DNA from: Massilia sp. Root133
GTDB lineage: Bacteria; Pseudomonadota; Gammaproteobacteria; Burkholderiales; Burkholderiaceae_D
DNA: 64,000 bases
NCBI RefSeq assembly: GCF_001426525.1
Contig: NZ_LMEW01000001.1
Location: forward strand, 66,978-130,977
Reading direction: 5' to 3'
The notes beneath the pieces are model-generated. The model saw only the letters and a program-made list of their open reading frames with translations. It made no database searches and had not been told where the DNA came from. The stretch's first letter is position 1; every line of letters begins with the position of its first letter. The position numbers were made by a program, and so were the translations under genes. Of this stretch, positions 6,971 through 60,532 are shown in pieces.

Positions 6971-9259
6971 GTGATCCGGGCCTTGCGCTATGCCCTCGTG
7001 ATCGGCAGCGCGATCGCGTCGATCCTCGTTTTCCTCCTCGCCTCCGCATCCAGCAACACGGGCTTCTTCGCCCGCAATTTCGCCTGGCTGTTCGGCCTGA
7101 TCATCGTCGTCGCCGGCGCGCTGTTCGTGCTCGTGCTGGTCGCGTTCTGGCGCCTCTATTCGCGCTACAGGGCCGGCAAGTTCGGCTCGCGGCTGATGGT
7201 GCGCCTGATGGTGCTGTTCGGGGGGATCGGCATCCTGCCCGGGGTCGTCGTGTTCATGGTGTCGGTGCAGTTCGTTTCGCACTCGATCGAATCGTGGTTC
7301 GACGTCAAGATCGAGGCCGCGCTCGACTCCGGCCTGAACCTGTCCCGCGCCGCCCTCGACGAGGCGCTGGCCGACCTGAGCGCCAACGCGGGTACCGTTG
7401 CCGCCACGCTGGCGGGGCAGGGCGAACAGGATGCCCAGACGATCCTCATGCGTGCGCTCGACGACAGCGACGGCATGCAGAGCGCGCTGCTCTTGAATGC
7501 GGCCGGCAAGCCGGTCGCCAGCGCCACCGAGGACCGCCGTGCCGTCGAGTCCGCCGACCTGCCCACGCCGCAGATGCTCAAGCAGGCCAAGATGCCCGGC
7601 GGTTACGCCCGGCCCGAAGGCGGTATCGACGACGACTTCCGCGGGCCGCACGACGAGCCGCCCAGCGCCCTCGACGCCGCCACCGACCTGCGCCTGCGCG
7701 TGGTCGTGGCCGTGCCCGAGCCGCCCGGGATGGAAGCGCGCTACCTGCAATTGACGCAGTCCGTGCCCGTCAACCTGGCATCGAACGCCGCCGTGCTGCG
7801 CACCGCCTACCGCGAATACCAGGAACGCTTCGCGGCGCGCCGGGGCCTGAACAAGATGTACATCGGCGAACTCACGCTGACCCTGCTGCTCGCGATCTTT
7901 TCCGCCATCGGCGCCTCGTTCCTCATCGCCGGCAACCTGGCGCAGCCGCTGCTCGTGCTGGCCGAGGGCACGCGCGCCGTCGCGGAAGGCGACTTGTCGC
8001 CGCGCCCGATCGTCGAGACCAACGACGAACTGGGCACGCTGACGCAATCGTTCAATGCGATGACGGGCCAGCTGTTCGAAGCGCGCTCCGCCGTCGAACG
8101 CAACCGCGCCGCGCTGGAAAGCGCCAAGGCCCACCTGGAATCCGTGCTCGCCAACATGTCGGCCGGCGTGATCGTGATGGATGCCGATGGCGTCGTCGTC
8201 AACTCGAACGATGCCGTGCACCGCATCCTGGCGGTCGACGTCGCGTCGCTGGCCGGCCGTCCGCTCGACGCGATCGAGGGGCTGGAAGTGTTCGCGGGCG
8301 CCGTCACGCGCGCCTTCTCGGCGCAGAGCGCGCAATCGGCCGCGGGCCGCGGGCGCGGACGGGCGCATTGGCAGCAGCAGATCGAGATCCCGCGCCGCCC
8401 CGGCACCGACGACGACCATGACCTCACCCTGCTCGCGCGCGGCTCGCGCCTGCCGGTGGGGGCGGGCAGCGGCTTCATCGTCGTGTTCGACGACATCTCC
8501 GACGTGATCTCGGCCCAGCGCTCGGTCGCCTGGGGCGAGGTCGCGCGCCGCCTCGCGCACGAGATCAAGAACCCGCTCACGCCGATCCAGCTGTCGGCCG
8601 AACGCCTGCAGATGAAGCTGGCCGACCGCGTCGACCCGGATGCGGCGGCACTCCTCAACAAGGCCACCGACACCATCGTGAGCCAGGTGGCCGCGATGAA
8701 GCGCATGGTCGACGACTTCCGCGACTACGCGCGCACGCCGCCGGCCGTGCTGCACCCGCTGGACCTGAACGACCTGATCGACGAGATCCTGAACCTGTAC
8801 CTGTCCGAGGATGGCTCGGACGTGATCCACCCGTCGCTCGCCCCCGGCCTGCCGCGCGTGATGGGCGACGCGACCCAGTTGCGCCAGGTGATCCACAACC
8901 TGCTGCAGAACGCGCAGGACGCGCTGGCCGACCGCCCGCCGCAGGACGACCCGCCCCGTATCGACATCGTGACGGAGGCCATCCACTATGTCGGCGCCGA
9001 CGGCGGCACGGGCACCGCGGTGCGCCTGGCGATCGTCGACAACGGGCCCGGCTTCGCGCCCAGGATCCTGTCGCGGGCGTTCGAACCGTACGTCACGTCG
9101 AAAGCGCGCGGCACCGGCCTGGGCCTGCCGATGGTCAAGAAGATCGTCGACGAACATGGCGGCCGGATCGACGTCGCCAACCGCGCCGACGGAAGTGGCG
9201 CTTCGGTATCGATTTTGCTGTTAAAGTTAGCGCCAGAGGCGAACTTGGCCGAAGCGTGA
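6971..9259 (+). CDS. ntrY: NtrY-type membrane sensor histidine kinase
   Basis: Sensor kinase of 762 residues starting at GTG. Transmembrane segments lie at about 5-27, 34-60 and 80-100, then a periplasmic part to about 295, another transmembrane helix, HAMP (about 323-375), PAS (from about 380), HisKA with phosphoacceptor His530 in RRLAHEIKNPLTPIQL, and HATPase with NLLQNAQDAL, DNGPGF and GTGLGLPMVKKI. The family is tied to nitrogen regulation or to respiratory and envelope control; the signal here is not visible. Its likely partner is the NtrX-like regulator downstream, separated by a 178-bp spacer carrying a structured repeat. Confidence 0.92.
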   Translation: MIRALRYALVIGSAIASILVFLLASASSNTGFFARNFAWLFGLIIVVAGALFVLVLVAFWRLYSRYRAGKFGSRLMVRLMVLFGGIGILPGVVVFMVSVQFVSHSIESWFDVKIEAALDSGLNLSRAALDEALADLSANAGTVAATLAGQGEQDAQTILMRALDDSDGMQSALLLNAAGKPVASATEDRRAVESADLPTPQMLKQAKMPGGYARPEGGIDDDFRGPHDEPPSALDAATDLRLRVVVAVPEPPGMEARYLQLTQSVPVNLASNAAVLRTAYREYQERFAARRGLNKMYIGELTLTLLLAIFSAIGASFLIAGNLAQPLLVLAEGTRAVAEGDLSPRPIVETNDELGTLTQSFNAMTGQLFEARSAVERNRAALESAKAHLESVLANMSAGVIVMDADGVVVNSNDAVHRILAVDVASLAGRPLDAIEGLEVFAGAVTRAFSAQSAQSAAGRGRGRAHWQQQIEIPRRPGTDDDHDLTLLARGSRLPVGAGSGFIVVFDDISDVISAQRSVAWGEVARRLAHEIKNPLTPIQLSAERLQMKLADRVDPDAAALLNKATDTIVSQVAAMKRMVDDFRDYARTPPAVLHPLDLNDLIDEILNLYLSEDGSDVIHPSLAPGLPRVMGDATQLRQVIHNLLQNAQDALADRPPQDDPPRIDIVTEAIHYVGADGGTGTAVRLAIVDNGPGFAPRILSRAFEPYVTSKARGTGLGLPMVKKIVDEHGGRIDVANRADGSGASVSILLLKLAPEANLAEA

Positions 9260-9292
9260 ATCGCGCATAAAATCTTGGCTGGAACGGGCGCC

Positions 9293-9398
9293 TCGAAAAA
9301 CCGTCGCGAGCGGCCGCAATGCGGTTCGAGAAGCGCAGCTGTACGAAAGTACAGCGAGCATCGCAGGACCGCAGTGCAACGCGCAGCAGGTTTTTCGA
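9293..9398 (-). repeat. Structured palindromic element, copy A
   Basis: A 106-bp imperfect palindrome between ntrY and ntrX. The outer arms TCGAAAAACC (9293-9302) and GGTTTTTCGA (9389-9398) are perfect inverted repeats. Inner helices are GCACTGCGGT with ACCGCATTGC and GCTGTAC with GTACAGC around a TTTC loop (minus strand). The 96-nt core (9298-9393) matches 83 of 96 positions, by hand count, of the core at 60117-60212 on the other strand. It does not code for protein. Confidence 0.85.
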
Positions 9399-9437
9399 CG
9401 TGCCCGGAGAGAGTCAGATCATAAAAGGCATAACAAG

Positions 9438-10190
9438 ATGGCGAACATACTCGTAGTTGACGATGAAATGGGCATCCGCGAACTGCTCTCGGAAATCCTT
9501 GGCGACGAGGGACACGCGGTCCAGCTGGCGGAAAACGCGCAGCAGGCCCGCCAGGCGCGCCAGCAGGGCACCCCCGACCTGGTGCTGCTCGACATCTGGA
9601 TGCCCGATACCGACGGCGTCACCCTGCTCAAGGAGTGGCAGCGCGACGGCCTGTTGACGATGCCGGTCATCATGATGTCCGGCCACGCGACCATCGACAC
9701 CGCTGTGGAAGCGACCCGTATCGGCGCCCTGAATTTCCTGGAAAAGCCGATCGCCCTGCAAAAACTGTTGAAAGCGGTGCAGCAGGGCCTGCAGCGCGGC
9801 CAGGAAGTGGCGCGCGCGCCGGCGATCGCGCCGCGTCCGATGGCGACCGTCGCCTCCGTCTCCGCGCCCGTGCCGGAGCCGAGCGCCGTCGCGCAGCCGA
9901 TGTATGCGCCGCAACCGCAGGGCGGCTCGATGGGCGCGTCGATGGGCATGGTGCGTCCCGTCAGCAATGGCGAGGCGCACGCGCACGGCTACACGCTGTC
10001 GTTCGACCTGCCGCTGCGCGAGGCGCGCGACGCGTTCGAACGTATGTACTTCGAACACCACCTGGGCCGCGAAGGCGGCTCCATGACGCGCGTGGCCGAG
10101 AAGACGGGCCTGGAACGGACCCACCTGTACCGCAAGCTCAAGCAGCTCGGCGTCGAACCGGGCAAGCTGGGCAAGAAGAGTGCACAGTAA
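9438..10190 (+). CDS. NtrX-like response regulator lacking the AAA+ domain
   Basis: Response regulator of 250 residues. The receiver domain (about 1-120) has the acidic pair D8-D9, phosphoacceptor D52 in LLDIWMPD, conserved Ser in MMSGH and Lys in LEKP. A flexible Ala/Pro/Met-rich linker (about 125-185) follows, then a Fis-type helix-turn-helix (about 205-240, MTRVAEKTGLERTHLYRKLKQLG). The central sigma-54-contacting ATPase domain of canonical NtrX is absent: no Walker A and no GAFTGA. It therefore probably acts without sigma-54, more like ActR/PrrA. The preceding ntrY is the likely kinase. Confidence 0.85.
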   Translation: MANILVVDDEMGIRELLSEILGDEGHAVQLAENAQQARQARQQGTPDLVLLDIWMPDTDGVTLLKEWQRDGLLTMPVIMMSGHATIDTAVEATRIGALNFLEKPIALQKLLKAVQQGLQRGQEVARAPAIAPRPMATVASVSAPVPEPSAVAQPMYAPQPQGGSMGASMGMVRPVSNGEAHAHGYTLSFDLPLREARDAFERMYFEHHLGREGGSMTRVAEKTGLERTHLYRKLKQLGVEPGKLGKKSAQ

Positions 10191-59078: not shown

Positions 59079-60104
59079 GTGCAAATTGGTCCTTATACGC
59101 TGCGTAACAATGTCTTCGTCGCCCCGATGGCCGGGGTGACCGATCGTCCGTTCCGCCAGCTGTGCAAGAAGCTGGGCGCGGGCTACGCGGTGTCCGAGAT
59201 GGCCGCGTCGAATCCGCGCCTGTGGGCCAGCGAGAAATCGTCGCGGCGCACGGACCATGCGGGCGAGATGGAGCCGAAGGCCGTGCAAATCGCCGGCGCC
59301 GACCCGCACGACCTGGCCGAATGCGCCAAATTCAACGTCGAGCGCGGCGCCCAGATCATCGACATCAATATGGGGTGCCCGGTCAAGAAGGTGTGCAACA
59401 ACTGGTGCGGTTCGGCGCTGCTGCAGCACGAAGACCTCGTGCAGCGCATCCTGGACGCCGTCGTGAACGCCGTCGACGTGCCCGTCACCCTGAAATTCCG
59501 CACCGGCTGGGATCGCCAAAACAAGAACGCGCTGACGATCGCCCGCATGGCCGAGGAAGCCGGCATCGCGATGCTGACCCTGCACGGCCGCACCCGCGCC
59601 GATGGCTACAAGGGCGACGCGGAGTACGACACCATCGCCGCCGTCAAGGCCGCCGTCGGCATTCCCGTCGTGGCCAACGGCGACATCACGACGCCGGACA
59701 AGGCGAAGTTCGTGCTGGATTACACGGGCGCCGATGCGGTCATGATCGGCCGCGCCGCCCAGGGCCGTCCCTGGATCTGTCGCGAAATCGATTACTTCCT
59801 GCGCACGGGCGAGTACATGCCGCCGCCGCTGGTGGACGAGGTGCGCGAGCTGATGCACGAACACCTGCCGGCCCACTACGCCTTTTACGGCGAATACCTG
59901 GGCGTGCGCACGGCGCGCAAGCACATCGGCTGGTATGTCGAAGACCTGCCCGGCGGCGAAGAATTCCGTCAGCGCATGAACCGTCTGGAGTCGACCGCTG
60001 AACAATTATCTGCCGTCGATGCGTTTTTTAAATCGCAACACCGGTATGGCGACCGGTTACAATACCGGCCCGCGCATCCTGACGATGACGCGATTGCCGC
60101 CTAA
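59079..60104 (+). CDS. dusB: tRNA-dihydrouridine synthase DusB
   Basis: FMN enzyme reducing U to D in tRNA, 341 residues. GTG start; PYTLRNNVFVAPMAGVTDRPFR at the N-terminus, catalytic Cys in INMGCPVKKVC, LHGRTRADGYKG, VVANGDI and MIGRAAQGRPWI. It precedes fis, as in most proteobacteria, but the two are separated here by 194 bp carrying a structured repeat. A TAAAAT box lies about 40 bp upstream. Confidence 0.95.
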   Translation: MQIGPYTLRNNVFVAPMAGVTDRPFRQLCKKLGAGYAVSEMAASNPRLWASEKSSRRTDHAGEMEPKAVQIAGADPHDLAECAKFNVERGAQIIDINMGCPVKKVCNNWCGSALLQHEDLVQRILDAVVNAVDVPVTLKFRTGWDRQNKNALTIARMAEEAGIAMLTLHGRTRADGYKGDAEYDTIAAVKAAVGIPVVANGDITTPDKAKFVLDYTGADAVMIGRAAQGRPWICREIDYFLRTGEYMPPPLVDEVRELMHEHLPAHYAFYGEYLGVRTARKHIGWYVEDLPGGEEFRQRMNRLESTAEQLSAVDAFFKSQHRYGDRLQYRPAHPDDDAIAA

Positions 60105-60116
60105 AAGGAGGCCCGT

Positions 60117-60212
60117 AAACCTGCTGCGCGTTGCAATTTTGTCCTGCGATGCTCGCTGTACTAGCGTACAGCTGTGCTTCTCGAACAAAATTACTGCCGC
60201 TCGTGACGGTTT
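60117..60212 (+). repeat. Structured palindromic element, copy B
   Basis: 96-nt core between dusB and fis. Outer AAACC...GGTTT, middle GCAATTTTGT with ACAAAATTAC, inner GCTGTAC with GTACAGC around TAGC. It matches copy A (9298-9393, opposite strand) at 83 of 96 positions by hand count. In the middle helix, three G-C or C-G pairs of copy A are T-A pairs here, so pairing is kept while sequence changes. Confidence 0.85.
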
Positions 60213-60298: not shown

Positions 60299-60532
60299 AT
60301 GAGCAAAGAAAGTATCCAGGAAGTCGTTCAAAAAAGCCTCGAAGACTATTTCAACGACCTGGGCGAGCAGAAACCGACGAATATCTACGACATGATGCTC
60401 CTGACCGTCGAAAAACCGATCCTGCAAGTGGTGATGACGCGGGCGGAGGGCAATCAGTCGCATGCCGCGCAGATGCTGGGCATTAATCGCAATACATTAC
60501 GCAAGAAGTTGCAGGAGCACGGGCTGCTGTAA
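60299..60532 (+). CDS. fis: DNA-binding protein Fis
   Basis: Nucleoid protein and global regulator, 77 residues, shorter than the E. coli 98-residue form as usual in betaproteobacteria. The C-terminal Fis helix-turn-helix is GNQSHAAQMLGINRNTLRKKLQEHGLL; the N-terminal half dimerises. AGGATGAAGC lies upstream of the ATG. It follows dusB; the repeat in between may separate their expression. Confidence 0.95.
   Translation: MSKESIQEVVQKSLEDYFNDLGEQKPTNIYDMMLLTVEKPILQVVMTRAEGNQSHAAQMLGINRNTLRKKLQEHGLL

Follow-up and report, generated by a model that had tools for sequence, protein, structure and literature searches.

Two related palindromes in a 64,000-nucleotide stretch of Massilia sp. Root133 DNA, the whole of which is referred to here as the window, belong to a dispersed family of hairpin-forming repeats. 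The family is mobile: its members are absent from at least one close relative at nearly all orthologous sites compared, and 2-bp duplications are enriched at their ends. The preferred explanation, held with slightly less than even confidence, is a non-coding, non-autonomous mobile family of about 122 bases which may be recognised in the form of one folded strand with a fixed polarity and inserts preferentially at the 3′ ends of genes.

The two copies within the window are listed in Table 1. The first-pass annotation had counted by hand 83 identical positions out of 96 between the core of copy A and the reverse complement of 60117-60212; the count holds and the alignment is ungapped. Copy B was found in a BLAST search of the whole genome with E = 2.5e-26. 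Both copies extend beyond the bounds originally given, to about 122 nucleotides each. The stretch 9273-9418 folds at -77.7 kcal/mol (z = -6.65), which was equalled by none of 200 shuffles. The ntrX-like gene downstream of copy A encodes just 250 amino acids, consisting of a receiver and a Fis-type HTH with no AAA+ domain in Pfam. Against the NtrX model (452 positions, cut-off 600 bits) the whole protein scores 157.9 bits, with the best match over residues 1-119.

Table 1. Copies A and B of the hairpin element and their neighbouring genes, in window coordinates.
Feature	Position	Strand	Basis
Copy A, whole element (strand A = + strand)	9285..9406	+	BLAST and covariance model; arm ends from 117-copy complementarity
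Copy A outer arm, 5′ side	9285..9302	+	Partner 9389-9406
Copy A inner motif GTCGCGAGCGG (family form GTMGCGAGCGG)	9303..9313	+	Near-invariant in 113 cross-genus copies
Copy A middle helix, 5′ side	9314..9327	+	Covarying helix 4/5
Copy A core GAGAAGCGCAGCTGTAC-GAAA-GTACAGCGAGCATCGCAG, including apical hairpin	9328..9366	+	Alignment and structure
Copy A middle helix, 3′ side	9367..9377	+	Partner 9314-9327
Copy A inner motif AACGCGCAGCA (family form ends GCGCAGYA)	9378..9388	+	Cross-genus conservation
Copy A outer arm, 3′ side	9389..9406	+	Pairing and arm-end analysis
Copy B, whole element; 3′ end overlaps last base of dusB stop codon	60104..60225	-	BLAST, covariance model, gene ends
Sensor histidine kinase (ntrY in the first-pass annotation), upstream of copy A	6971..9259	+	HisKA, HATPase_c, HAMP
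Response regulator, NtrX-type receiver and Fis-type HTH, downstream of copy A	9438..10190	+	Domain matches
dusB, upstream of copy B	59079..60104	+	TIGR00737 above cut-off
fis-like gene, downstream of copy B	60299..60532	+	NF002517, 119 bits, just below cut-off of 122

BLAST against the whole genome returned 33 matches, full and partial. A covariance model was built from 27 aligned copies of this genome and gave 27 matches of at least 109 bits there, out of 39 rows at E up to 1; the remaining rows are weaker, partial or opposite-strand duplicates of the same places. Further copies, which the first-pass annotation had proposed as a check on its claim, therefore exist in the genome itself and also beyond it, with matches in 29 of 36 genomes of the same genus and in 3 of 24 other genomes of the order (E 0.001 or better for both). 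At this cut-off genomes with any match carry 1 to 58 copies each; a second run over five genomes gave 62 copies in one of them, G022, at E 1e-12. The exact core pattern was matched over named genomes in at least 119 stretches, many of them from Betaproteobacteria. The 80 matches listed include Massilia, Telluria, Janthinobacterium, Herbaspirillum and Ralstonia, and further Zoogloea, Glaciimonas, Uliginosibacterium, Thauera and one Solimonas record. The pattern also occurs in one viral contig, and a single copy searched against plasmids and phages gave no match at E 1e-5.

The earlier statement that no named family fits is borne out by Rfam (release 15), in which the element had no match, either in the window or at 11 further loci, at E up to 5. 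A literature search, in which subscription journals were poorly covered, found no description of the present family. Subfamilies exist, as five copies in the genome (L007, L010, L014, L018 and L025) have an additional 13-14 bases or so in the 3′ half and another (L026) has about 15 adjoining the apical hairpin. Shortened copies of about 50 bases were also seen in the genome (L265, L266, L267 and L268); they keep the outer arms and the GTMGCGA start and have lost the middle. Tandem copies occur as a full and a shortened element side by side (L271, G000:C6) and as three in a row (L374).

The outer arms pair over 17 bp from a CC/GG anchor, after which complementarity drops immediately to chance (117 copies). 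The fold contains three asymmetric internal loops, each with GA opposite GCA; two of them point one way and the third points the other way. A further small loop has GTM opposite A. Across the 27 copies of the genome, 96.6% of cells in the 42 pairs are paired and 22 of the 42 pairs have changes on both sides. This set has a covariation score of 0.329, whereas shuffles score 0.141 and slid partners 0.046-0.070, and none of five structure measures was reached by any of 500 shuffles. A set of 89 copies from relatives, all outside the model, has 97.5% of cells paired, changes on both sides in 28 of the 42 pairs and a score of 0.393 (shuffles 0.140, slid partners 0.047-0.081); its alignment was fitted to the covariance model and so leans towards structure. 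Covariation was originally read from two copies only. It now lies above both controls in the two larger sets, which upholds the proposal that a fold is kept rather than a mere sequence.

In the cross-genus comparison the two arms stay complementary although their sequence is almost unconstrained, and the inner motifs hardly vary. Arm positions 4-16 hold 0.08-0.67 bits on either side in 113 cross-genus copies. Eleven of these 13 positions are Watson-Crick paired in 81-102 of the 113 copies, the exceptions being position 5 (46 copies) and position 16 (55). The inner motifs GTMGCGAGC and GCGCAGYA hold 1.66-2.00 bits in the same copies, apart from the M position (1.13) and the Y position (1.17). 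These motifs were absent from the search pattern, and anchoring required a match to them within two substitutions; the core was part of the pattern, so its conservation across genera reflects the choice of data. The set retained 113 of 130 hits, the remainder being anchor failures or duplicates.

The two strands of the fold are not equivalent. Read on strand A, the ratio of G.T to A.C pairs is 61:8 in the genome, 154:27 in the genus set and 264:57 across genera, these being cell counts which overstate independent events because the copies are related by descent. The last figure comes from 112 rows at 100 of 120 loci; the full set had 132 rows, from which antisense or overlapping matches were removed. 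By pair column, G.T is the richer in 21 against 4 (17 equal) and in 24 against 6 (12 equal), and removal of the three richest columns leaves 75:25 and 144:57. The excess is alike whichever way the neighbouring genes run (78:13 with strand A, 68:14 against it, 46:7 diverging, 23:1 converging or unclear), unlike the expectation for a fold that serves in host mRNA. A contribution to the ratio from C-to-T change in exposed strand A is possible, and would also imply a single-stranded stage. A bias towards one replication strand was looked for among the copies of near-complete genomes. GC skew is dominated by gene strand in 60 sampled segments of three genomes. With the origin guessed from gene direction and copies counted by eye, 25 copies run against and 11 with replication in G033, and 12 against and 13 with it in G012.

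Comparison with four close relatives covered 14 of the 27 sites in the genome, and the element is absent from at least one relative at 13 of these. The empty site at L002 reads AAGTGATGCAG; here two genes overlap, the stop codon of the first with the start of the second, and this TGA is where the element is located. Between dusB and fis, the spacers of G009, G031, G032 and G036 are without the element, and G022 and G006 have another copy elsewhere in the same spacer (24 of 30 rows examined). Directly upstream of the ntrX-like gene, the element is present among 30 loci only in the genome itself and in G013, at different positions. Several close relatives have in this same spacer short imperfect hairpins of another kind, whose sequences differ (L095-L099, L101), and at L023 all four relatives carry a short hairpin with similar arms instead of the element. 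Insertion into the loops of pre-existing hairpins, hinted at by L023 and the ntrY-ntrX spacer, was considered and rejected. No such arms are present at the empty L002, L008, L009, L016 and dusB-fis sites, as judged by eye on unfolded sequence, and at these sites the arms must have arrived with the element.

The first-pass annotation had offered two readings of the palindrome, a mobile repeat or a regulatory RNA within the operon. The former is upheld, as copies are dispersed and are missing from at least one close relative at nearly all sites compared. A regulatory RNA of both operons was rejected, since orientation to the genes is mixed in the genus and most relatives examined are without the element at both places. 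The G.T-tolerant strand is sense at ntrY-ntrX and antisense at dusB-fis.

Insertion has left further traces. Equal dinucleotides just outside the ends, one base beyond the 17-bp arms, occur in 31 of 117 copies where 9.1 are expected, at an offset picked after viewing a 14 by 14 matrix; the cross-genus signal is weak, at 15 of 113 copies where 8.1 are expected. The end bases vary, with TA in 5 of the 31 duplicated dinucleotides, and the target is a weak C-W-T-A-W-G-like sequence. Decay proceeds by internal deletion: ten sequences of one Janthinobacterium site comprise three intact elements, five shortened ones and two without it. A simple unit of 122 bases does not account for what is seen at two other Janthinobacterium sites, where the insertion is longer than the hairpin, with some 40-90 additional bases on the 5′ side of strand A. 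Many Janthinobacterium copies at different genes (L309, L332, L350, L356, L377 and others) have in common an ACGTCA-like left flank outside the 5′ arm. This flank may be the target, or part of a longer element.

One alternative is an ordinary MITE. Its double-stranded inverted-repeat ends would be read by a DDE transposase with a 2-bp target duplication, and its arms would stay matched through template-switching palindrome correction and not through selection on the fold. The duplications, the internal-deletion derivatives and the weak target all agree with this account, as does a consensus near AGGGAACCTCGAAAAACC at the ends within the genus. It is nevertheless judged unlikely. The outer arms share little sequence across genera, and palindrome correction predicts equal G.T and A.C on strand A, contrary to the strong imbalance of the genus set. 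An IS630-type partner was rejected, as DDE_3 was found in just 7 of 38 genomes, is absent from the element-rich G022 and G033, and tracks no copy number.

Copies are placed between genes and at one particular position there. Gene calls were made with a codon-usage gene finder trained on the window; none of the 117 genus-set copies lies in a gene interior, and one cross-genus copy was called inside a gene. A stop codon faces the 3′ end of the element within 4 nt in 35 of 51 genus-set cases, where 14.4 are expected from uniform position in the spacer, and in 61 of 84 cross-genus cases (14.2 expected). For the 5′ end the corresponding counts are 12 of 46 (10.3 expected) and 3 of 42 (9.2 expected). 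Start codons lie within 4 nt in 3 of 67 and 1 of 62 cases in the genus set, and in 0 of 64 and 2 of 22 across genera. The stop-codon count took in 114 of the 117 genus and 113 of the 130 cross-genus hits, with 7 at locus edges. Stop-adjacent copies, of which those at ftsZ (L337) and rplL (L340) are named examples, have their wobble-tolerant strand antisense to that gene. Between co-directional genes, 53 cross-genus copies have the opposite and 11 the same orientation; the genus set is without bias, at 37 same and 42 opposite in 79 copies, or 36 same and 41 opposite among those entering the stop-codon count. Selection against insertion within genes would explain the intergenic location, but not the preference for stop codons over the rest of the spacer.

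Such placement, and the polarity of the strands, would also suit a REP/REPIN-type element moved by a RAYT (Y1) transposase that acts on single-stranded hairpins. REPs are known close to stop codons (PMC12306157), GTAG or GTCG is present within the fold, and Y1 transposase genes occur in all 38 genomes scanned, including the 7 without elements. The proposal is nonetheless improbable, as none of 30 Y1 loci has a significant element match (best E 0.03), and the size of REPs and the position of their tag, compared below, also stand against it. A RAYT partner was rejected since the two RAYT-like genes of the genome have unrelated palindromes and no RAYT lies beside any copy examined. Inverted repeats of the GGGGTCAGAGCCC type lie on both sides of one of these genes, and a palindrome starting CCGTCATTCCCGCG comes after the other (L031 1331-2141 and L032 2224-2306). 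The search for a mobilising enzyme among Y1 and IS630-type DDE_3 transposases found none. No autonomous element was seen among the partial copies of the genome, five of which have both arms within about 70 bases and hence no gene between them.

Marginally less probable still is a cis-acting 3′-end element that works as a terminator, an attenuator or a brake on translation, and is retained site by site because of what it does to the gene. It would fit the stop-codon placement, and in E. coli ribosomes stall at REPs that lie no more than 15 nt from a stop codon (PMC12306157). Against it, the T-run of an intrinsic terminator is absent (each of the six positions next to the 3′ arm has T in 33-53 of 227 copies), the wobble-tolerant strand is antisense at stop-adjacent copies, and the element is absent or shortened in seven of ten sequences at one Janthinobacterium site and missing from close relatives at nearly all sites compared.

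A non-autonomous element that is recognised in folded, single-stranded form would most simply account for the free arms, the fixed loops, the one-sided wobble and the empty sites. Under this preferred explanation, recognition during movement would fall on folded strand A, 5′ GTMGCGAGC ... GAGAAGC ... GAGCATCGCAG ... GCGCAGYA 3′, either as RNA or as single-stranded DNA. It would act through the conserved internal loops and not through terminal sequence, and selection on the single strand would operate during movement. As the element is devoid of genes, the enzyme would have to be supplied in trans. Insertion would duplicate about 2 bp and would favour gene 3′ ends; strand A would have its own 3′ end at the stop codon and would thus be antisense to that gene. 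Counted against this explanation are the failure to find a mobilising enzyme among the transposases searched, the presence of the 2-bp duplication in a minority of copies, the longer insertions at two Janthinobacterium sites and the unbiased orientation of the genus set, unlike that seen across genera. A 2-bp duplication is also not expected of HUH-type single-strand transposition.

A broader proposal is tentative, being possible rather than likely. The family may represent a widespread class of bacterial mobile element with ends set by structure and not by sequence, in which three GA/GCA loops lie in freely varying helices, a single-stranded intermediate (RNA or DNA) has fixed polarity, and the machinery places the 3′ end at stop codons. 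For small palindromic repeats such as ERIC, no mechanism of movement has been proven in the decades since they became known. The hairpin family provides three testable handles: fixed loops with free arms, the polarity of wobble pairs, and precise landing at stop codons. If the proposal is true, the family would indicate a route of transposition in which a folded strand is read and gene ends are located. The family also illustrates that covariation by itself is not sufficient grounds for calling an intergenic hairpin a regulatory RNA.

Among known repeats, ERIC (IRU, RU-1) of enterobacteria is described as a palindromic intergenic repeat of about 127 bp with target site duplication and no proven transposase (PMC2229807). 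The hairpin family resembles it in length, palindromic form, intergenic location and target duplication, the last being weak across genera. It differs, in a comparison by description only, in ends that are not TA, in the taxa concerned and in conserved internal loops with free arms. YPAL (RU-2) of Yersinia is likewise a long palindromic intergenic repeat with target duplication and, as described, no TA ends (PMC2229807), features which the present family shares; compared by description only, it differs in its 168 bp and its taxa. REP/REPIN hairpins with RAYT may move as single strands and often lie downstream of genes or near stop codons (PMC3733652, PMC12306157). REPs are just 20-40 bp with GTAG or CGTC as an end tag (PMC3733652), whereas the hairpin described here is 122 bp, four to six times longer, with its GTMG motif 17 bp inside and not terminal. 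TIRYT/TIRtron families of terminal inverted repeats flank RAYT-like genes as repeated palindromes in genomes with Y1 transposases (PMC3733652); repeated palindromes occur in such genomes here too, but the element flanks none of the 30 Y1 loci examined. As it fails the TA ends of ERIC and the size, tag position and RAYT link of REP, the family is filed under neither, being set apart from ERIC by description; it appears to work most like ERIC, and like the REPs found near stop codons.
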